A stretch of 40,417 nucleotides of DNA, from NCBI GenBank assembly GCA_035528575.1, contig DATKYK010000022.1, positions 1-40,417 of the forward strand, in the 5' to 3' direction. Below are positions 2,237 through 23,876 of the stretch, one piece after another. The translations under genes and the position numbers were made by a program. This DNA is from Dehalococcoidia bacterium. Lineage in GTDB: Bacteria > Chloroflexota > Dehalococcoidia > E44-bin15. Each line of letters begins with the position of its first letter. Position 1 is the first letter of the stretch. The notes beneath the pieces were generated by a model that worked only from the letters and a program-made list of their open reading frames with translations, made no database searches and had not been told where the DNA came from.

Positions 2237-4210
2237 ATGACTAAAAGGGGGAAAATCCTGCTTGTCCTAGTTAGCTTGGCAGTGGTTCTGGTCATAGCAG
2301 GCGTTACCAGCACCGTGACGCACGCTGCCACAGAAACCCTAGTCTTAACCAGGGCATGGTGTGGAAACACTTCGGTACTGCCTCCTACCCTCAACGATTT
2401 GAACATTGGTACGGAGATATCGGAGATATATAAAGCGAACTTATTATCTTCTAATGATGTATGGGATGATTGTTCGCACACCTGGGAAGAAGCCGCTTAT
2501 GATTTTCATAGATTTGAGTTCAAAATAGAGGACACTAGTACATGTTGTACCCAGCTTAATGTGTTACACGAAGGGTGTGGGCATTTTACATCGGATTCGG
2601 AGGCAAATGGGCATTTCCTTTGTATATGGAATTACGCCAATCCAGGATGGGAATTTGTAGACGGAACTACTAACGGGAACTGTGATCAAACACTAACGGG
2701 CACATTTACCACTAACTGGTCCAATTATATTCAAGGTGGATATGTATATCTATTAGCAATAACTCAAGATAAAGGTTGGTCCTGCCCTTTCCTTTATACC
2801 TGGAACGGAACTACCTATCAACTTATAGGCGATATGTATGGTGGTGCCGGGCTGGGCTATAATCCTACACCAGGGAGAGACAAAGATTATATTAACGTTG
2901 ATGGCTCTAAACTGATACCAGTCAATGGTACCTACCGCCTGGAGATCGCAGTGGACCAAAATGAAATAACATATCTGGATGAGGTCAGATTGATAGCTGT
3001 CGATCACTCACCCGATATAGAGATTTACTCACCAGCGCCACCAGCATTTTGGATTAATGAGATTCCTCCATTCGAGATAGATACGATAAAGGATCCTGTA
3101 ACCCCGGTCTCGGCAACAGACGGGGATGGCAGGGATATTCTGCCAGCTATCTCAGAAATAGACAGGGAGTGTACCGAGGCACATCTGTTCTCTTTTGATA
3201 CCATAACGCTAGACTTTGGAAATCTAAGCGAAGCAGAACAAATAAAGCTGTTATACAGCGCCTGGATGGACTTGGGAGGTGAACCTGAGTGGACCGTGAG
3301 ACGAGAATTTGTTGCATCGCACCCCGGTGAACCACTGATTGGCAACTCCTATGCTGAGGTGATAAATGAGGATGGAGAGTGGGAGAGGATTTCCGACTTC
3401 CGCACACTATCAATGTCGAAACCGAGGACGTGGGTCGTGGACATCACCAACTGGTTTAAGACAGACGACTATAGAGTTAGGCTAAATATTTTCACTAAGA
3501 CACATTTCGATTATATAGCTGTTGATACCTCACAGGATGAGGAGGTCTCAGTTACCGAGCTCGCCCCCATTTCAGCAGACTTATACTGGAAAGGCGTTTC
3601 CATACAAACTTCTCCCGATGGGAAAGAGCCGGTCATGGCTAGCTATTACGATACCACGGAAGATTTAACCGGTTTCGGTGTGTTCGAGGGTAAGTTCACC
3701 AGGTATGGGGATGTCCTCCCATTATTAACCCAGGTTGATGACAGGTTTGTTATTATGCATGCTGGCGATAGCATCTCTATCAACTTCAATGAACTACCTA
3801 TTCCCGAGGGGATGGAAAGGGACTATTATGTGGTTTGCGATGGATATTATAAGACGGATGCTGTGCGGAAATGGTTGGGCCAGGATGTAAGCAGTGTGGA
3901 ACCACTGCCGTTCCATGCTATGTCTGCTTATCCCTACCCAGAAAGCGAAAGCTACCCCTATAATGCTAAAAATATGGCATACCTTGATGAGTATAACACA
4001 AGGGAATTTAGGGCATCGCTGTCTGGTGAATCAGGGCACCATACCATTTATTCCGATTATGCCGAGGTGGAATTCACCCCTTGCGTGGTGGGTGGCGATG
4101 TCCTCTCCATAAACAAAGTTGCTGTCCTGGCGCCGCTGGTCGGCTTTTTAGTATTCTTAATCTTGGTTGTTGGTGGTTTCCTGGGTTTAAGAAGACTCAA
4201 GGCCCGGTAG
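2237..4210 (+). CDS. Secreted, C-terminally membrane-anchored protein, 657 aa, unknown function
   Basis: I chose the start at 2237 because it has AAAGGAG 6-8 nt upstream and sits downstream of a strong promoter; it also gives a clean signal peptide (MTKRGKILL followed by a hydrophobic run ending in THAA). An extracellular region follows, including a Cys-rich part and a CPFLYTWNGTTYQLIGD segment that leads into beta-rich sequence. The C-terminus carries VGGDV, then NKVAVLAP, a transmembrane helix and a basic end (RRLKAR). That three-part tail is shared with the protein encoded at 4564-5430. It probably sits on the outer face of the membrane. I do not recognise an enzymatic domain. The gene is flanked by two 53-nt direct repeats. 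Confidence 0.8.
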   Translation: MTKRGKILLVLVSLAVVLVIAGVTSTVTHAATETLVLTRAWCGNTSVLPPTLNDLNIGTEISEIYKANLLSSNDVWDDCSHTWEEAAYDFHRFEFKIEDTSTCCTQLNVLHEGCGHFTSDSEANGHFLCIWNYANPGWEFVDGTTNGNCDQTLTGTFTTNWSNYIQGGYVYLLAITQDKGWSCPFLYTWNGTTYQLIGDMYGGAGLGYNPTPGRDKDYINVDGSKLIPVNGTYRLEIAVDQNEITYLDEVRLIAVDHSPDIEIYSPAPPAFWINEIPPFEIDTIKDPVTPVSATDGDGRDILPAISEIDRECTEAHLFSFDTITLDFGNLSEAEQIKLLYSAWMDLGGEPEWTVRREFVASHPGEPLIGNSYAEVINEDGEWERISDFRTLSMSKPRTWVVDITNWFKTDDYRVRLNIFTKTHFDYIAVDTSQDEEVSVTELAPISADLYWKGVSIQTSPDGKEPVMASYYDTTEDLTGFGVFEGKFTRYGDVLPLLTQVDDRFVIMHAGDSISINFNELPIPEGMERDYYVVCDGYYKTDAVRKWLGQDVSSVEPLPFHAMSAYPYPESESYPYNAKNMAYLDEYNTREFRASLSGESGHHTIYSDYAEVEFTPCVVGGDVLSINKVAVLAPLVGFLVFLILVVGGFLGLRRLKAR

Positions 4211-9507: not shown

Positions 9508-12500
9508 ATGAAATGTATAAAATGCGATTCTGATAATCGAGAAGGTGCCAAGTTCTGCGAACAGTGCGGCACTCGGTTAGTCCGCAAATGTCCTGATTGT
9601 GGTGCTGAGGTTAGCCCGACGGCCAGGTTCTGCGCCGAGTGCGGCCACGATATAGCAGAGCCCAAAGAAGCCCCTCCTATCGACTACTCCCAGCCCCAGA
9701 CCTACACCCCCAAGTTCCTGGCCGATAAGATCCTTACTACACGCAGCTCTATCGAGGGGGAGCGCAAACTGGTCACCGTGCTCTTCGCCGATGTAGCCAA
9801 CTTCACCTCCATGTCGGAGAAGCTCGACCCCGAGGAAGTCCACGAGATCATGGACGGCTGTTATCAACTCCTCATGGACGAGATACACAGGTATGAAGGC
9901 ACCATCGACAAGTTCACCGGCGATGGAGTTATGGCACTCTTCGGTGCCCCAGTGGCCCATGAGGACCACGCTCAGCGTGCCTGCTACACCGCTCTGGCAA
10001 TGCAGAGAGCCATAGGGGAATACGGTGAGAAGATAGTGAAGGAGTGCGGGGTAGAGTTCAAGATGCGAGTAGGACTGAACTCCGGTCCGGTGATCGTAAG
10101 CTCTGTGGGGAATGACCTGCGGATGGACTATACCGCCATCGGGGACACAGTCAATCTGGCCTCGAGGATGGAGACCAATGCCAAGCCCGGCAGAGTTCTG
10201 GTTTCCTCAGGTACCTATAAGATAGCCAGGGACTTCTTCAAGTTCGAGCCTGTGGGAAAGATACAGGTAAAGGGGAAAGAGGAGCCTGTGGAGGCCTACC
10301 AGATTATCGAGGTCGGAGAGGCCGAGACACGGATAGAAGCGTCGGTCGCCAGGGGCCTCACCAAATTCGCCGGCCGGCAGAGGGAGATTGCAGCCCTGAA
10401 AGAGGCTTTCCAAAAGGCGCAGTCAGGCTCTGGCCAGGTAGTGGGCATCGTGGGTGAAGCTGGAGTAGGCAAATCCAGGCTCCTCCTCGAGCTGAGGGTA
10501 GCACTTAAGGAAGATGAATTTACCTACCTCGATGGCCAGTGTCTTCATTACGGTGGCTTAATGGCGTACCTCCCCTTGCTAGATATCCTGAGGTCCTACT
10601 TCGATATTAATGAGGGAGAGCGGGAGTTTGTGGTAAAGAAGAAGATCACAGATAAGATAGCCCTCCTTGACGAGAATCTTGAGAGTATCCTATCACCGCT
10701 ACATGACATTCTCTCCCTCAAGGTAGAGGATGTGAATTACATGATGTTGGAACCTCAGCAAAAACGGGAGAGGATCTTCGAGGCTATTCGTGACCTGCTG
10801 ATACGGGAGAGCCAGAACACGCCCCTCATTCTCGCTATTGATGACCTGCAATGGATCGATAAGACCTCGGAGGAGTTCCTCACCTATCTAATCGGCTGGC
10901 TAGCCAATGCCCGTATCCTGCTAATCATTCTCTACCGGCCGGAGTACACCCATCAATGGGCGAGCAAGTCCTACTACAGCCAGATCCGTGTTGAACAACT
11001 CTCCACGGATAACAGCGCCGACCTTGTGAAGTCGATCCTTGAGGATGGAGAAGTAGTGCCTGAATTAAGTGACCTAATCCTTACCAGAGCGGCTGGAAAT
11101 CCTCTCTTTATGGAGGAATTTACTCGCACCCTATTAGAGAACGGCTCCATCCAGAAAAAGGACCATCAATATATGTTGAGCACAAAGGCCTCTGAAATAC
11201 AGGTACCCGATACCATTCAAGGAATAATTGCAGCCCGCATGGACCGATTAGAGGATAACCTCAAACGTACAATGCAGGTGGCCTCTGTTATTGGTAGAGA
11301 CTTCGCTTTTCGTATCCTCCAGACCATTATGGGGATGAGTGAGGAGCTTAAATCATGTCTACTCAACCTACAGGGATTGGAATTCATCTACGAGAAGAAC
11401 CTTTTCCCCGAACTAGAATACATATTCAAACATGCTCTAACTCAAGAGGTGGCATATAATAGCCTACTTCTTAAAAAGAGAAAGGAGTTACACGAAAGAA
11501 TAGGGACGGCAATTGAGGAACTATATCCAGATAGGTTGGAGGAATTCTATGAAATGCTGGCTCATCATTATGCCAGAACCGAGAACCTGGAGAAGGCTTA
11601 CCAGTATCTGAAGCTATCTGGGGACAAGACATCAGGTCACTATGCCAACAGGGAAGCCTTTTATTTCTACAGGGAAGCGATAAAGGTACTAAATGAGTTA
11701 CCTGAGCCCGAGGAGAACAGAAAGAGACTGATAGAGGTGGTACTCTCAATGGAAGGCCCTATGAAACTCCTCGCCTACCCAGAAGATTCTCTTCATGTCC
11801 TCCAGGAAGGAGAGAGGCTGGCAAAAGAGGTCGGGGATCTTAGGAGTCTGGCAATTATTTATGCCAGCATGGGTCTCTGTCATACGTTTAAAGGAGATTC
11901 TAAGCAGGGGATGAGGTACGCCGAGTATTGCTTCGATATGGCGGCCAAGATAGAGGATATTGAACTTATGGCTCCTACTGCATTCAATCTTTGCTCCTCC
12001 TATGCCATACTTGGGGAACATACAAAAACAGTTGCAGTAGCAACTAAGGTCCTTTCTCTACTTGAGAAGACTCACAGAGAGTCTGAATCCTTCGGAGTAG
12101 CACTCAATTTCAATATATATGCGGCTCTCTCTTCGTATTGTGGGCAGGCAATGTGCCTTATGGGAGATTTCAAAGAGGGAATAGCTTTGTGCGACAAGGG
12201 CCTCCGTTTTCTGCAGAATACGGATAACTTATACAGCTTGGGTTTCGTGGAGATTATGTATGGTTTGGTTTACGTTGCCAAGGGAGACGGCGAAAATGCC
12301 ATTAACCATTCGCAAAAAGCTGTCGCATATGGGGAGGAGGGACAGATAATACCTGTGGTGAGCATTGCATCGGGTTTGTTGGGCTTGGGATATCATTTAC
12401 TTGGGAATCAGGAAACAGCTCGTCAATATATAGAGAAAGGGCTTCAAATACAGGAGGATACAGGGCTTTCTATGCTAATGTCTCTTAATAAAATAGCTTT

Positions 12501-12894
12501 GAGTATGGTTCATTTCGATTCGGGTGACCTGGATAGTGCTCGGATGTGTGCTGAGGAAGCCCTGGAGTTAGCACGGAGCAATGATGAGAAATGGCCATTA
12601 GCGATGTCATGGATCTTCTTGGGGATGGTCCTGGGTAAAGCGGGTAAATCACAGTACAATCAGGCCGAAGAGTGTATTCTGCAGGGAATCAAGCTCTGTA
12701 ATGAATGGAAAATGAGGCCGTCGTGCTCTGAAGGGTATCTCTACCTGGGAGAGCTTTATGCCGACATGGGCCAGAGGGAAAAGGCCATTGAAACCCTGAA
12801 GAAAGCCGAAGGTGCGTTCCAGGAGATGGGAATGGACTACTGGCTGCGCAGGACGCAAGAGGCGCTGGAGAGGGTGGAAAAGAAAACGAAATAA
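9508..12894 (+). CDS. Zinc-ribbon / class III adenylate cyclase / STAND-type ATPase / TPR sensor protein (copy 1)
   Basis: 1,128 residues. Two zinc ribbons: C3, C6, C17, C20 and C28, C31, C42, C45. Class III cyclase domain at ~85-235, with metal aspartates D95 and D139, the adenine-specifying pair K135 and D207, and catalytic N216 and R220. This full set predicts cAMP synthesis from ATP. A STAND/AAA-like ATPase follows, with Walker A GEAGVGKS at ~316-323 and a Walker B-like LILAIDDLQW, then a winged-helix-like part and TPR helices from ~690 to the end. In such proteins ligand or partner binding by the TPR part is thought to gate the output domain. The stop overlaps the next start (TAATG), so the two copies are co-translated. 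No transmembrane segment; cytosolic. Confidence 0.9.
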   Translation: MKCIKCDSDNREGAKFCEQCGTRLVRKCPDCGAEVSPTARFCAECGHDIAEPKEAPPIDYSQPQTYTPKFLADKILTTRSSIEGERKLVTVLFADVANFTSMSEKLDPEEVHEIMDGCYQLLMDEIHRYEGTIDKFTGDGVMALFGAPVAHEDHAQRACYTALAMQRAIGEYGEKIVKECGVEFKMRVGLNSGPVIVSSVGNDLRMDYTAIGDTVNLASRMETNAKPGRVLVSSGTYKIARDFFKFEPVGKIQVKGKEEPVEAYQIIEVGEAETRIEASVARGLTKFAGRQREIAALKEAFQKAQSGSGQVVGIVGEAGVGKSRLLLELRVALKEDEFTYLDGQCLHYGGLMAYLPLLDILRSYFDINEGEREFVVKKKITDKIALLDENLESILSPLHDILSLKVEDVNYMMLEPQQKRERIFEAIRDLLIRESQNTPLILAIDDLQWIDKTSEEFLTYLIGWLANARILLIILYRPEYTHQWASKSYYSQIRVEQLSTDNSADLVKSILEDGEVVPELSDLILTRAAGNPLFMEEFTRTLLENGSIQKKDHQYMLSTKASEIQVPDTIQGIIAARMDRLEDNLKRTMQVASVIGRDFAFRILQTIMGMSEELKSCLLNLQGLEFIYEKNLFPELEYIFKHALTQEVAYNSLLLKKRKELHERIGTAIEELYPDRLEEFYEMLAHHYARTENLEKAYQYLKLSGDKTSGHYANREAFYFYREAIKVLNELPEPEENRKRLIEVVLSMEGPMKLLAYPEDSLHVLQEGERLAKEVGDLRSLAIIYASMGLCHTFKGDSKQGMRYAEYCFDMAAKIEDIELMAPTAFNLCSSYAILGEHTKTVAVATKVLSLLEKTHRESESFGVALNFNIYAALSSYCGQAMCLMGDFKEGIALCDKGLRFLQNTDNLYSLGFVEIMYGLVYVAKGDGENAINHSQKAVAYGEEGQIIPVVSIASGLLGLGYHLLGNQETARQYIEKGLQIQEDTGLSMLMSLNKIALSMVHFDSGDLDSARMCAEEALELARSNDEKWPLAMSWIFLGMVLGKAGKSQYNQAEECILQGIKLCNEWKMRPSCSEGYLYLGELYADMGQREKAIETLKKAEGAFQEMGMDYWLRRTQEALERVEKKTK

Positions 12895-15800
12895 TGAAAT
12901 GCCCAAAATGCCAGGCTGAAAACCGACAAGGGGTTAAGTTCTGTGAGGAATGTGGTGCCAAGCTAGAATTACTCTGCCCAAGCTGCGGAGCTAACATTCC
13001 ATCAGGCAAGAAGTTCTGTGGCGTGTGCGGCCACGATCTGGAGGAAATAAAAGCAGCACTGCCCGTCGACTATAACGAGCCCCAATCCTACACCCCCAAA
13101 TTCCTCTCCGATAAAATCCTCACTATTCGCAGCGACATAGAGGGGGAGCGCAAGCTGGTGACCGTGCTCTTCACCGACGTTGCCGGCTACACCTCCATGT
13201 CGGAGAAGCTCGACCCCGAGGAGGTCCACCAGATCATGGACGGCTGCTTCAAGCTCCTTATGGACGAGATCCATAAGTATGAAGGCACCATCGATAAATT
13301 CACCGGCGATGGAGTCATGGCCCTCTTTGGCGCTCCTATAGCCCATGAGGACCACGCCCAGCGTGCCTGCTATGCTGCACTGGCAATGCAGAGAGTCATG
13401 GGCGAATACGGCGAGAAGATTGAGAGGGAGTGCGGCGTGGAGTTCAAGATGCGGGTGGGGCTCAACTCCGGCCCGGTGATTATAGGCGCGGTGGGGAATG
13501 ACCTGAGGATGGATTACACCGCAATCGGGGATACCACTAATCTGGCCTCCAGGATGGAGACCAATGCAAGGCCCGGCACCGTCCTGGTTTCGTCAGGCAC
13601 ATATAAGATAGCCAGGGACTTCTTCAGGTTTGAGCCCCTGGGAGAACTGAAGGTGAAGGGGAAAGAGAAGCCGGTGGAGGCCTACCAGCTTATAGAGGCC
13701 AGCGAGGTTGAAACGCGGATCGAGGCCTCGGTCGCCAGGGGCCTCACCAAATTCGTGGGCCGGCAGAGAGAGATTGCAGCCTTGAAAGAGGCCTTTGAAA
13801 AGGCGCAATCAGGCTCCGGCCAGGTGGTGGGCATCCTGGGAGAGGCCGGCGTGGGCAAATCCAGGCTACTCCTTGAGCTGAGGGGAGCACTCCCCAAAAG
13901 GGAACATACCTACCTCGAGGGCGAATGTCTGCACTACGGGGGGCTAATGGCTTACCTGCCCTTGCTGGATATCCTGAGGACATACTTCGATATCAAGGAG
14001 GGAGAGCGGGAGTTTGTGGTAAAGAAGAAGATGACAGATAAGATAACCCAGCTCGATGAGAAGCTCGAGGGCATCCTGCCGCCGCTGCAAGACATCCTAT
14101 CCCTTCAGGTAGAGGATGTGAATTACATGATGCTGGAACCTCAGCATAAAAGGGAGAGGATCTTCGAGGCTATTCGTGACCTGCTGATACGGGAGAGCCA
14201 GAACAGGCCCCTCATCCTCGCTGTGGAGAACCTCCAATGGGTTGATAGGACATCGGAGGAGTTTCTGACCTATCTCCTCGGCTGGCTGGCCAATGCCCGT
14301 ATCCTGCTGATAATTCTCTACCGGCCGGAATACACCCATCAATGGGCAAGCAAGTCCTACTACAGCCAGATCCGCGTGGACCAGCTATCCACCAGCACCA
14401 GCGCCGAGCTGGTGCAGTCTATCCTTGAAGAGGGAGAAGCGGTGCCCGAGCTCAGTGAGCTCATACTGAACCGGGCCTCAGGCAACCCCCTCTTCATGGA
14501 GGAGTTCACCCATACACTATTAGAAAACGGCTCCATCCAGAAGAAGGACCACCAGTACGTGTTGAGCATAAAGGCATCCGATATCCAGGTGCCCGACACC
14601 ATCCAGGGGATCATCGCTGCCCGAATGGACCGACTGGAGGAGAACCTCAAGCGCACCATGCAGGTAGCATCCGTCATTGGGAGGGACTTCGCCTACCGCA
14701 TCCTCCAGACCATCACCGGAATGCGGGAGGAGCTCAAGTCCTACCTGCTCAACCTTCAGGGGCTGGAGTTCATCTATGAGAAGAGCCTATTCCCGGAGCT
14801 GGAATACATCTTTAGACACACTCTCACGCAAGAGGTAGCATACAACAGCCTGCTTCTCAAGAGGAGGAAGGAGATCCATGAGAGGATAGGTAATGCCATA
14901 GAGGAGCTGTACCCGGACAGGCTGGAGGAGTTCTACGAGGTGCTGGCACATCACTATTCCCGAAGCGAGAATGCAGAGAAGGCCTTCCAGTATCTGTTTT
15001 CATCGATGGTAAAGACAGGGCTCAGCTATTCCCTGTGGGAAGCCTTTCGTTTTGGCAGGGAGGCGTTTAACGTACTCAACAATATGCCACAGACCGATGA
15101 GAATAAAGTTAATGGTATCAATGTTCGACTAATATTAGCATTGGTAATGCAAGGTTTGGGCTACCCGGAAGATTCGCTCCAGATCCTCCAGGAGGGCGAA
15201 AAATTATCGAAAGACCTAGGTGATGAGAGAAATCTAATCATATTTCACAGCAATATAGGTATGTGTTATACGAATAAAGGAGACCTGACCCAGGGGATTA
15301 AGTATACCGAGAATGCATATCAGGGTGCGGAAAAGTTAGATGAAATCGAACTCTTAGCTCCAATTGGGGTTGATCTTTGTGTGGCATATTTTTGGGCGGG
15401 GGAATTTTCACAAATAGCCGAAGTAGCTTCCAAGGTTATTGCTTCTTTGGAGAAAACGAGCAGAGAATCCGAATACTTCGGCAAGCCTTTCAATCCGTAT
15501 TGCGCACTTCTAGCACTCCGTGGGTCGGCATTGGGCTATTTGGGGAATTTCGAGGAAGGAGAAGCCCTGTGTGACAAGGCACTGCGTTTTTCACACGATA
15601 TCGCAAACGTAGTAACTATTGCATTTGTAGAGATATATTATAGCACTCTTTATGCAATCAAAGGAGATGGGAGGAACGGCGTACAGCATGCTAAAATCGC
15701 TGTCAAGTACGGTGAGGAAACAGGAATACTCACTATATTGGCCCCAGCCTGGTATGTTTTAGGATGGGGGTATTTCCTTCAGGAAGAACTAGAAACGGCT

Positions 15801-16265
15801 ATAGAATATATGCAGAAAGGCCTGGAAATCCAGCTTTCTGCCGGAATTTCCCCGAATCTATCTTCCTTCTATTCAGCATTAGGTCTATATTATATCGAAT
15901 CTGGTGATCGAGAAAATGCGATAGATTGTGGCAAGCGGGCCTTAAAGCTCTCGTGTGATAACTATGAAAGGAAGAATGAAGCATTATCAAAGATACACAT
16001 GGGAAGAATATTGAGTAAAGCAGATATCTCACAAGGCAGCGCGGCGGAGAAATATATTCTAGAGGGAATCAAGATCGATGAAGAACTGAAAGTAAAACCC
16101 GGTTGTTCATGGGGATATTTATACTTAGGAGAGCTCTACGCTGATATGGGCCAGAGGGAAAAGGCGCTTGAAACCCTGAAGAAGGCCGAGGGAATGTTCA
16201 GGGAGATGGGAATGGACTACTGGCTGCGCCGGACGCAAGAGGTGCTGGGAAGAGTGGAAGGCTGA
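12894..16265 (+). CDS. Zinc-ribbon / class III adenylate cyclase / STAND-type ATPase / TPR sensor protein (copy 2)
   Basis: 1,123 residues, a tandem paralogue sharing the first base of its ATG with the stop of copy 1. Domain order is identical: paired zinc ribbons (MKCPKCQAENRQ and later CGVCGHDL), a cyclase domain with TDVAGY, DKFTGDGVMALFG and DYTAIGDTTNLASR retaining all catalytic residues, Walker A GEAGVGKS, and TPRs. Identity to copy 1 is very high up to about residue 690 and again over the last ~45 residues (GYLYLGELYADMGQREKA). It falls sharply in the TPR block between, which is also visibly more AT-rich. In place of DDLQWID of copy 1 it has ENLQWVD, so the Walker B acidic residues differ. 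Probably senses a different signal with the same output. Confidence 0.9.
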   Translation: MKCPKCQAENRQGVKFCEECGAKLELLCPSCGANIPSGKKFCGVCGHDLEEIKAALPVDYNEPQSYTPKFLSDKILTIRSDIEGERKLVTVLFTDVAGYTSMSEKLDPEEVHQIMDGCFKLLMDEIHKYEGTIDKFTGDGVMALFGAPIAHEDHAQRACYAALAMQRVMGEYGEKIERECGVEFKMRVGLNSGPVIIGAVGNDLRMDYTAIGDTTNLASRMETNARPGTVLVSSGTYKIARDFFRFEPLGELKVKGKEKPVEAYQLIEASEVETRIEASVARGLTKFVGRQREIAALKEAFEKAQSGSGQVVGILGEAGVGKSRLLLELRGALPKREHTYLEGECLHYGGLMAYLPLLDILRTYFDIKEGEREFVVKKKMTDKITQLDEKLEGILPPLQDILSLQVEDVNYMMLEPQHKRERIFEAIRDLLIRESQNRPLILAVENLQWVDRTSEEFLTYLLGWLANARILLIILYRPEYTHQWASKSYYSQIRVDQLSTSTSAELVQSILEEGEAVPELSELILNRASGNPLFMEEFTHTLLENGSIQKKDHQYVLSIKASDIQVPDTIQGIIAARMDRLEENLKRTMQVASVIGRDFAYRILQTITGMREELKSYLLNLQGLEFIYEKSLFPELEYIFRHTLTQEVAYNSLLLKRRKEIHERIGNAIEELYPDRLEEFYEVLAHHYSRSENAEKAFQYLFSSMVKTGLSYSLWEAFRFGREAFNVLNNMPQTDENKVNGINVRLILALVMQGLGYPEDSLQILQEGEKLSKDLGDERNLIIFHSNIGMCYTNKGDLTQGIKYTENAYQGAEKLDEIELLAPIGVDLCVAYFWAGEFSQIAEVASKVIASLEKTSRESEYFGKPFNPYCALLALRGSALGYLGNFEEGEALCDKALRFSHDIANVVTIAFVEIYYSTLYAIKGDGRNGVQHAKIAVKYGEETGILTILAPAWYVLGWGYFLQEELETAIEYMQKGLEIQLSAGISPNLSSFYSALGLYYIESGDRENAIDCGKRALKLSCDNYERKNEALSKIHMGRILSKADISQGSAAEKYILEGIKIDEELKVKPGCSWGYLYLGELYADMGQREKALETLKKAEGMFREMGMDYWLRRTQEVLGRVEG

Positions 16266-20138: not shown

Positions 20139-21935
20139 ATGACAGACGACATTCAATCCTTTTTGGCGACATCACCCGTTTTCAAGGACGTGCCTCCCGA
20201 ACAATTAGCGGAAATTGCGCCGCTCTTCCAAACGGAGCGCTATCGTGCCGGAACGGTCATACTGCATCAGGGTGATTACAGTCCGGCCGTTTATTTCCTG
20301 CGTTCGGGACGCCTCGTGGTACGCGTACAAAGGGGCGAGTTGAGGGAAACGGTAGCCTACTTACAGCCTCCAGCCATTGTCGGCGAACTGTCATTTTTCA
20401 CCGGGCGCCGCATCGTCGCTGACGTCGAGGTGGAGGTAGACGCAGAACTGGTGTTCTTGACCAAAGAGGCCTTTTCCAAGCTGCCGAAGGAGGGGGACGT
20501 AATCCTTACTGGGCTCATGGGGGAGATCGCGGGGAGACTGCATGAGACTATGACTCGCGGCGCAAAGGTGCCGGAGTCGCCTATCGCCTTGCTCTATAAC
20601 CATCCCAATTGGGAAGCTCCATTAAGCTTTGCCTCTGGGCTGGCCTGCTCGTTGGCCCGCCAGAGTGGACGTCAAACGCTCCTGGTAAACCTGGGCGCAG
20701 TGTCCCCTCACGAGGTCCGCTTGCTTGACGGTAGTGCCAGTGCCTGCTCCCTGGCTGTGAGTGCGGAGGACGAAAACCTGCGCGCTGACGTGGCCCAAAA
20801 GCTGACTGCCTGGAAAGACAGTTTTGAAAATTTGCTCTTGAACCCGGTGGGTCCGCAGGCAGCGGCTATCGCTGAAACCATCAAAGAGTTCACGAATTTT
20901 CGGGGAGACCTGGTCGGCCCAGGCGATCCAGTTCCAGGCGAGGCGGGGGAGGCGCATTTCATCGTCCAGAGCGCCTTGCGTCCCACATTGCCGTTTCTCA
21001 CTGGCAGGCAGCAATTGGTTTTTGATGCGGCGGCTTCGGAATCCGCTTACCTGTCGGGTCATCCGATAACATCTCGGTTCCAGCGCAGCGTGGATTCCAT
21101 CGCCCGTTGTATTGCCGGACTTCAGGTGGGCCTGACGCTGGGTGCCGGCGCCGCATGGGGCTGGGCACACATTGGCGCGCTTTCGGTCCTGGAGGACGCC
21201 GGCCTGCCAATTGATTGTATCTCCGGTTCCTCGATGGGAAGCGCCATGGGCGCGGTTTATAGCGTGGGCTACACTATACAAGAGATGAAAGAGATGGCTG
21301 TTTCCTACCCCTGGCGCTCGAAGCGCTTACGCGAATGGCGCTTCTGGCGCATGTGTCTGCTCAACGAAAGGGTGTTCCTGAAGACTTTACACGAGTATTT
21401 CGGCGACCGCCTGGTAAACCAGACGGAGATCCCGTATTGGGCCAACTCCGTGGATATCCAAACCGGCCGCGAGTACACGATCAGGACTGATACTTTGGTG
21501 GAATGCGTTCGCAGCTCGTGCGCTATGCCTGGTTTGTTGCCTCCGCGGCCGTGCGAGGGCCACCTGCTGGTCGACGGCGGGATCATGGATCCCGTACCCG
21601 TAAAACTCGTCCGGCAGATGGGCTGCCACTTCAGCATTGGCATCAATGTCATGGCTGAGATCGAGTCAGGTAAGGTGAAACGCCGGTATCCGTTCAACGC
21701 CTTCGAGATCGTGCTGCGCTGTATGTTCGCGATGGCGCACGAAATCGGCCAGGCACAGGCGGAGCGTACTGCGGCCGTGGTTTTTACGCCGGAACCGGGA
21801 GAGATTGGGATCCTTGATTTTTCCCGCAGTCCAGAACTCATTGAATGCGGCCGTAAAGCGGCGGAGGAACATATGCCAGCGATTCTCGCTAGCTATCAAA
21901 ACTTGAAGGCCAGTTCGCCAGGAGGGCAGCCGTAA
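20139..21935 (+). CDS. Cyclic-nucleotide-binding-domain patatin-like phospholipase (NTE family)
   Basis: 598 residues, start supported by AAGGAG about 10 nt upstream. Residues ~10-130 form a CNBD fold; the phosphate-binding cassette reads GELSFFTGRRIVADV at 82-96. Residues ~145-310 are a linker domain of the kind seen in bacterial NTE-like proteins. The patatin domain follows from ~328, with a Gly-rich oxyanion loop (GAGAAWGWAHIG, where the usual ARG is AWG), the nucleophile Ser365 in GSSMG and the catalytic Asp479 in DGG. It should hydrolyse phospholipids or lysophospholipids at the membrane. Arg in the cassette is offset by one relative to cAMP-binding CNBDs, so ligand binding is uncertain. 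It is richer in GC than its AT-rich neighbours, which hints at a different origin. Confidence 0.9.
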   Translation: MTDDIQSFLATSPVFKDVPPEQLAEIAPLFQTERYRAGTVILHQGDYSPAVYFLRSGRLVVRVQRGELRETVAYLQPPAIVGELSFFTGRRIVADVEVEVDAELVFLTKEAFSKLPKEGDVILTGLMGEIAGRLHETMTRGAKVPESPIALLYNHPNWEAPLSFASGLACSLARQSGRQTLLVNLGAVSPHEVRLLDGSASACSLAVSAEDENLRADVAQKLTAWKDSFENLLLNPVGPQAAAIAETIKEFTNFRGDLVGPGDPVPGEAGEAHFIVQSALRPTLPFLTGRQQLVFDAAASESAYLSGHPITSRFQRSVDSIARCIAGLQVGLTLGAGAAWGWAHIGALSVLEDAGLPIDCISGSSMGSAMGAVYSVGYTIQEMKEMAVSYPWRSKRLREWRFWRMCLLNERVFLKTLHEYFGDRLVNQTEIPYWANSVDIQTGREYTIRTDTLVECVRSSCAMPGLLPPRPCEGHLLVDGGIMDPVPVKLVRQMGCHFSIGINVMAEIESGKVKRRYPFNAFEIVLRCMFAMAHEIGQAQAERTAAVVFTPEPGEIGILDFSRSPELIECGRKAAEEHMPAILASYQNLKASSPGGQP

Positions 21936-22056: not shown

Positions 22057-22118
22057 ATGACAATGAAATGCCCAAAATGCCAGACCGAAAACCCTGAGGG
22101 TGCCAACTTCTGTCGAAA
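22057..22118 (+). pseudogene. Relic of a sensor-cyclase gene start (zinc ribbon only)
   Basis: Downstream of a purine-rich GCGGGGGAGCGGGG stretch, an ATGACAATG start encodes MKCPKCQTENPEGANFC, matching the first zinc-ribbon half of the two intact cyclases almost base for base. After the third cysteine codon similarity stops and the frame runs into unrelated sequence ending at 22242. I read this as the broken 5' end of a third family member. The remaining gap to 22315 holds nothing else that I can support. Confidence 0.65.
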
Positions 22119-22314
22119 AAAACGGGCATCAGTATTTGCAGGATTCGTTCTGTGGTTTTTTTCTGAGTCATTAGTAATTGGCCGCAGTCTATTGGCCCTG
22201 CCCATTGCTTCAATGAGATTTAAGGCGACGTTGTTGAAATAATAGTAATGGGGCGACCACTGTAGCAAACTCCCGGTCACATATAAACTGCTAAGGCTTT
22301 TTAAGGGAAACGAC

Positions 22315-23511: not shown

Positions 23512-23524
23512 AAGAGCCCGTGGC

Positions 23525-23876
23525 ATGGGAATAAATTGCTGGCTGCGCAAGACGCAAGAGGTGCTGGAGGGAGTAGAGGACTGACGAATGAAATGCCCAA
23601 AATGCTAGTTTGATAATCCGGAAGGGGCCATATTCTGCGGTAAATGCGGAGCCAAACAGGAAGGGACTTGCCCACAGTATGACTCTTGAAATCCTCTCGA
23701 CTTCAATTTTCTATGTGAGGTGCGGCCACGATCTAACAGAGCTCGAAACAGCTACTCCCGAACAACCCCCTGAAGACCTCTCCTTTGACGAGAAGAAAGT
23801 ATTGGTGGACGGTATCCAGAAGTTTCTGGATTATGCGATAGAACTCAAAGAGAAACAACCCGACATGTTTCATTAA
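23525..23876 (+). pseudogene. Relic of a sensor-cyclase tandem junction
   Basis: 23525-23584 encodes MGINCWLRKTQEVLEGVED and a stop, matching the last 19 codons of the intact cyclases. Four nt later an ATG at 23588 begins MKCPKC, then an in-frame TAG, then DNPEGAIFCGKCGAK, the start of a next copy. A second stop and a frame change follow, after which VRCGHDL of the second zinc ribbon reappears. The tail to 23876 (containing DEKKVLVDGIQKFLDYA) does not match the intact genes. This is the scar of a former head-to-tail cyclase array with the gene bodies lost. Confidence 0.75.

Follow-up and report, generated by a model that had tools for sequence, protein, structure and literature searches.

We consider it likely that two tandem genes, A and B, encode modular cAMP receptors with exchangeable TPR sensors, that is, STAND-type cyclases whose history combines recombination between core and sensor with gene conversion of the core. 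They lie in a window of 40,417 nucleotides, the entire contig C22 of a genome of 2.3 Mb in 45 contigs (96% complete), which carries one more full copy of the family, copy C, at C29:70699-74097. As the sequence-only reading had described, they are head-to-tail genes for proteins of about 1,125 residues, and they share one domain order: a double zinc ribbon leads into a class III cyclase and a STAND-like ATPase, after which comes a TPR superhelix closed by a C-terminal cap. In both proteins Pfam recognises the double zinc ribbon, the cyclase (Guanylate_cyc), the ATPase (AAA_16) and the TPR region. The stop of A and the start of B share TAATG, an overlap read from the sequence that makes translational coupling of the two genes probable. 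Their parts, in window coordinates, are as follows.

9508..12894, + strand: gene A, intact open reading frame, 1128 aa
9508..9693, + strand: A codons 1-62, variable zinc-ribbon head, nucleotide identity to B 0.60
9694..10986, + strand: A codons 63-493, homogenised core with the cyclase and the greater part of the ATPase, nucleotide identity to B 0.85
9769..10305, + strand: A cyclase domain PF00211, by profile match and catalytic residues
10363..10911, + strand: A AAA_16 ATPase domain, by Pfam
10723..10827, + strand: A codons 406-440, tract with third positions identical to B (31/31 in conserved residues)
10987..11610, + strand: A codons 494-701, left end of a putative replaced block, 87% aa identity, synonymous sites saturated, GC3 0.48
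11611..12702, + strand: A codons 702-1065, diverged TPR block, putative sensor
12748..12882, + strand: A codons 1081-1125, homogenised tail, made up of the final TPR hairpin and the cap helix
12894..16265, + strand: gene B, intact open reading frame, 1123 aa, same architecture as A
13080..14372, + strand: B codons 63-493, homogenised core
13155..13691, + strand: B cyclase domain PF00211, by profile match
13749..14306, + strand: B AAA_16 ATPase domain, by Pfam
14373..14996, + strand: B codons 494-701, protein-conserved segment, GC3 0.77
14997..16082, + strand: B diverged TPR block, GC3 0.43
16128..16259, + strand: B homogenised tail, by nucleotide segmentation
20139..21935, + strand: candidate output protein, fusion of a cyclic-nucleotide-binding domain (PF00027) and a patatin lipase

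Along the pair, sequence divergence is stepped and not smooth, in profiles of nucleotide identity and synonymous sites of the kind that had been proposed as a check. Segmentation gives nucleotide identities of 0.60 for codons 1-62, 0.85 for 63-493, 0.77 for 494-701, 0.57 for 702-1080 and 0.84 for 1081-1125. Over codons ~53-493, dS is ~0.4-0.8, and at codons 406-440 all 31 of 31 third positions agree, which marks this stretch as a recent gene-conversion tract; codons 63-493 and the tail, the latter ~89% identical in protein, were homogenised between A and B by DNA exchange. Codons ~491-701 retain 86-87% aa identity yet are synonymously saturated (pS 0.78-0.88), and codons 494-701 are kept alike by purifying selection alone. 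Homogenisation of the whole core is thereby ruled out, and the protein border near codon 690 differs from the DNA border because codons 494-701 are conserved in protein yet saturated at synonymous sites. The TPR block has 45% aa and 57% nucleotide identity with dS 1.4-2.6.

The sequence-only reading was thus right about the strong divergence of the TPR block and the conservation of the last ~45 residues, and in naming gene conversion or selection as the cause, both of which act in this pair. Its nearly identical core up to ~690 holds as high similarity (86% aa overall) with two regimes at the DNA level, 63-493 and 494-701. The zinc ribbons, which it had taken to be alike residue for residue, are only 52% identical in protein over codons 1-52, where synonymous sites are saturated.

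Base composition sets the two genes apart. GC3 in A falls from 0.69 (codons 63-493) to 0.48 (494-701; Fisher p 7e-7 for the drop) and stays at 0.48 in the TPR block, and in B it is 0.77 through codon 701 and 0.43 in the TPR block, with best change points at codon 511 in A and 716 in B. Both TPR blocks are therefore AT-richer than the cores, as had been noticed, but the AT-rich part of A starts at codon ~494-511 and not at 690, in B at ~716. This earlier onset makes A look recombinant, and its GC3 drop at codon 494 is the largest of 50 family members. Codons ~494 to ~1080 of A are probably a replaced block; counting against this, the protein of A codons 494-701 is nearer to that of B than to those of most other members. 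TPR blocks are AT-richer in 45/48 family members, so composition by itself is no proof of import.

An ordinary ancient tandem duplication, in which purifying selection held the core, the TPR block drifted fast and recombination was unneeded, would fit codons 494-701 exactly, with their 87% aa identity over saturated synonymous sites. It would also suit the sisterhood of A and B in the TPR tree, for which the AU test gives no more than a borderline rejection (p 0.054), and the faster change of the TPR block in all vertical pairs. We nevertheless judge it unlikely, since synonymous divergence is itself stepped along A/B and along the tandem pair of NaphS2, since cores 89-94% identical within one genome are joined to unrelated TPR blocks, and since core and TPR trees conflict with large dlnL. 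For the family as a whole, duplication without recombination is already contradicted.

This family evidence comes from 50 full or near-full members found in named draft genomes and further genomes, mostly draft assemblies; the named genomes are mostly Deltaproteobacteria/Desulfobacterota, with a few bins labelled Chloroflexi or Nitrospinota. Trees came from an unfinished maximum-likelihood search and FastTree, and topologies were compared by AU tests. Among 32 members sharing one TPR class, the TPR tree is rejected by the core data (dlnL 817, p 4e-7) and the core tree by the TPR data (dlnL 542, p 5e-40); synonymous sites in the TPR block are mostly saturated. Conflicting core and sensor phylogenies, the mark of sensor exchange, are thus present in the family. 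Moreover, core clade 0 occurs with TPR classes 0, 2, 3 and 4, core clade 2 with classes 0 and 3, and core clade 1 with class 1 and, in copy C, with class 0, so that copy C joins the TPR class of A and B to a different core clade.

Pairs that look vertically inherited provide a baseline, with core identity of 0.75-0.79 and TPR identity of 0.51-0.59; the TPR block is faster even here, and part of the A/B contrast is therefore an ordinary rate difference. Two pairs within single genomes depart far from this baseline, with core and TPR identities of 0.94 and 0.19 (L160/L161) and of 0.89 and 0.18 (L060/L074 of NaphS2), and the NaphS2 tandem pair has 0.99 and 0.73. Across genomes, L057 and L058 share 0.87 of the core and 0.35 of the TPR block, and L057 and L060 share 0.71 and 0.65; L057 and L058 are rejected as TPR sisters (p 8e-104). 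The tail sequence tracks TPR class, which rules it out as a universal constant. The proposal of a constant output with a varied sensor is thus borne out by the tree conflict, the same-genome pairs and the combinations of clade and class, except that the zinc ribbon varies too and the tail is not constant. Seen in many genomes, the family is a comparatively clean example from bacteria of how sensors are exchanged while the second-messenger output stays fixed.

In most pairs compared, identity breaks near codons 57-63 and 682-716, and some pairs whose members belong to one TPR class regain it at codons 1057-1091. The NaphS2 tandem pair has dS of 0.02-0.15 over codons 116-690 vs 0.4 in the TPR block, a step for which protein-level selection alone is insufficient as an explanation. 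L060 is a natural chimera, L074-like up to codon 600 and nearest to L057 from about codon 585. The core (codons ~60-690) and the block of TPR plus tail thus have separate histories, which means that sensor blocks were repeatedly recombined onto different cores, with breaks within the conserved core or near the start of the solenoid, and tandem paralogues also swapped core DNA via gene conversion; selection may have favoured sensor variety. Natural chimeras of this kind show at which points a STAND receptor tolerates being split and joined anew, making TPR gating of STAND cores directly testable.

Both proteins have the hallmarks of class III nucleotide cyclases: PF00211 scores above its cut-off, and the two metal-binding Asp, the K/T substrate pair and the transition-state N and R are retained, their roles being presumably those known in the family. 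The P-loop ATPase has Walker A and B motifs in A and B, with Walker A intact in both. In B, Walker B (window 14211-14250) reads VENLQW vs (V/I)EDLHW in the family, without the second acidic residue, a change that possibly alters ATP hydrolysis. The predicted model of A shows a confident solenoid from codon ~680, ending in the tail as the last TPR hairpin and cap helix, and is poor in parts of the cyclase and at 559-657. For the NBD-HD-WHD-arm order, no STAND core is among the listed fold matches, and model confidence is low at 559-657. The TPR model matches MalT domain III (1hz4; Z 27.1, rmsd 3.8, 338 residues aligned), a match to be read with the ease with which helical repeats align, and as a fold match only it also resembles the peptide-binding Rap/NprR receptors (Rap Z 25-27).

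These features suggest a ligand-sensing role for the TPR block and cAMP as the probable cyclase product. The family would then be one of cyclase receptors, soluble and of STAND type, from Desulfobacterota-like bacteria, in which the TPR superhelix would keep the ATPase switch shut. A ligand bound at the TPR block would open the switch, the class III cyclase would become active, and cAMP would rise. By analogy with STAND proteins that have a TPR sensor (PMC6468293), the sensor can be expected to gate the ATPase.

Known systems share parts of this design. STAND ATPases with a TPR sensor, such as MalT and PH0952 (PMC6468293), are alike in having an ATPase core with Walker A kept, followed by a TPR solenoid, but in A and B the output domain is a class III cyclase, placed in the N-terminal part after the zinc ribbons, and their sensors are swapped among paralogues. 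The best NCBIfam match of A and B, extending over cyclase, ATPase and TPR, is TIGR03903 (TOMM system kinase/cyclase fusion); the scores of 370.6 and 342.4 bits lie below the curated cut-off of 705.75, and the match begins at model position 276, the N-terminal part of the model being absent and a zinc ribbon standing in its place. In mammals, the soluble adenylyl cyclase ADCY10 has a cyclase, then an NTPase, then a long C-terminal region. A and B match its cyclase domain; they differ in having only one such domain, in their zinc ribbons and in a TPR block that can be exchanged. Polymorphic toxins (PMC3482391) and sensors diversified by diversity-generating retroelements (DGRs; PMC10907252) likewise combine a constant with an exchangeable part and leave relic ends behind current genes. 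In contrast, the part exchanged here is a putative sensor and not a toxin, and the signature is that of homologous recombination with no reverse transcriptase. DGR diversification is ruled out, as the 96% complete genome has no PF00078 match. Within the part of the literature covered, we found nothing specific on this cyclase-ATPase-TPR family.

Genes for cNMP-binding-domain proteins lie beside family genes more often than expected (11 observed vs 0.7 expected, ~15-fold, in 395 kb of flank, in a count that assumes independence between loci). The ones examined comprise CRP-type regulators, cNMP-rhodanese proteins and cNMP-patatin proteins, the last at three family loci. The source genome has only two PF00027 proteins, one of them the patatin fusion 3.9 kb downstream of B. 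cAMP would act on such nearby proteins, CRP-type regulators elsewhere and the cNMP-patatin lipase here, which is thus the presumed effector of A and B; it may serve other purposes, three metabolic genes lying in between. The family points to a little-studied cAMP pathway in anaerobic bacteria, in which cyclase receptors go together with cNMP proteins that are of CRP type or fused to a rhodanese or a patatin.

The gene order in the window, A, B, DUF362, Fe-S protein, AMP-ligase, cNMP-patatin and acyl-CoA dehydrogenase on the same strand, also fits a physiological role for A and B as a pair of sensors serving lipid or anaerobic metabolism. The two would read related metabolites, and the cAMP from both would reach the cNMP-patatin lipase and the adjacent acyl-CoA genes; variety as such would not be selected for. 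We regard this as possible, if on the doubtful side: the operon is putative, and neighbours vary between family members, cNMP-binding proteins excepted. It can be compatible with sensor exchange as the explanation of how the genes evolved.

The sensors swapped on a constant output core and the cNMP-patatin neighbours at three loci also recall an immune-like repertoire, a cyclase/lipase defence resembling CBASS or Pycsar whose TPR sensors are diversified against phages and whose orphan tails are by-products or anchors of cassette exchange. PycC models match the cyclase domain of A and B, and relic tails of another class lie directly behind L057 (TPR class 1, +58 to +120 nt past the stop, E 2e-8) and, weakly, behind L006 (class 0, +41 nt). 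Even so, this is very unlikely: the PADLOC matches are limited to the common cyclase domain, neighbours are metabolic in the window (acyl-CoA ligase, acyl-CoA dehydrogenase, DUF362) and CRP regulators elsewhere, and the genome has no reverse transcriptase. The architecture differs from that of Pycsar, and the nearby cNMP-patatin protein is a candidate effector. Of the repertoire-like diversification suggested earlier, sensor exchange in the family remains, with no sign of rapid, programmed or immune-type diversification.

Pieces of family genes also occur on their own. With a sequence profile, a tail piece of 46-60 nt was found outside family genes in six copies in the source genome (G000) and in three other family genomes (G001, G004 and G009). 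The copies in the source genome and the zinc-ribbon head fragments in the window are located as follows.

Window 23522-23580: orphan tail
C36:12870; C40:89645; C40:37994; C41:9891; C24:98734: orphan tails on other contigs
Window 22063-22119 and 23588-23710: zinc-ribbon head fragments, MKCPKCQTENPEGANFC... and MKCPKC*FDNPEGAIFCGKCG...

The acyl-CoA dehydrogenase gene thus has a head on one side and a tail joined to a head on the other. In 8/9 resolved cases, the orphan tail lies 8-105 nt past the stop of an unrelated same-strand gene, and two placements are common to different genera. Ordinary gene decay is not favoured in general because homology ends sharply at ~46-60 nt; G001:C54 does look like such a relic. 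The orphan ends may have been left by sensor-block replacement or by deletion of tandem neighbours. That short conserved head and tail DNA served as recombination anchors, scattering orphan ends as a receptor repertoire with a constant cAMP-producing STAND core was repeatedly re-fitted with TPR sensors, strikes us as improbable.

At C36:12870 and its counterpart G001 C86:9805, the tail ends a 35-codon frame (MMCDIRSGTNEDCFVKRVVDYWLRRTQEVLERVEG) in which 7/10 differences between the two fall at third positions (p 0.02), and this 35-aa frame ending in the tail motif is possibly a conserved ORF. An Rfam search of nine orphan-tail loci gave nothing above chance. In G004:C4 (L039), tail copies at 2354-2380 and 3319-3376 flank a predicted methyltransferase gene in direct orientation. 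Downstream of the orphan tails in C36, C24, C40a, G001:C86 and G009:C52, ACATCACA-like units are repeated, and at several of these loci a TATAAT-like promoter comes next, together with a common stretch resembling GATGAGTCCCTGACT.
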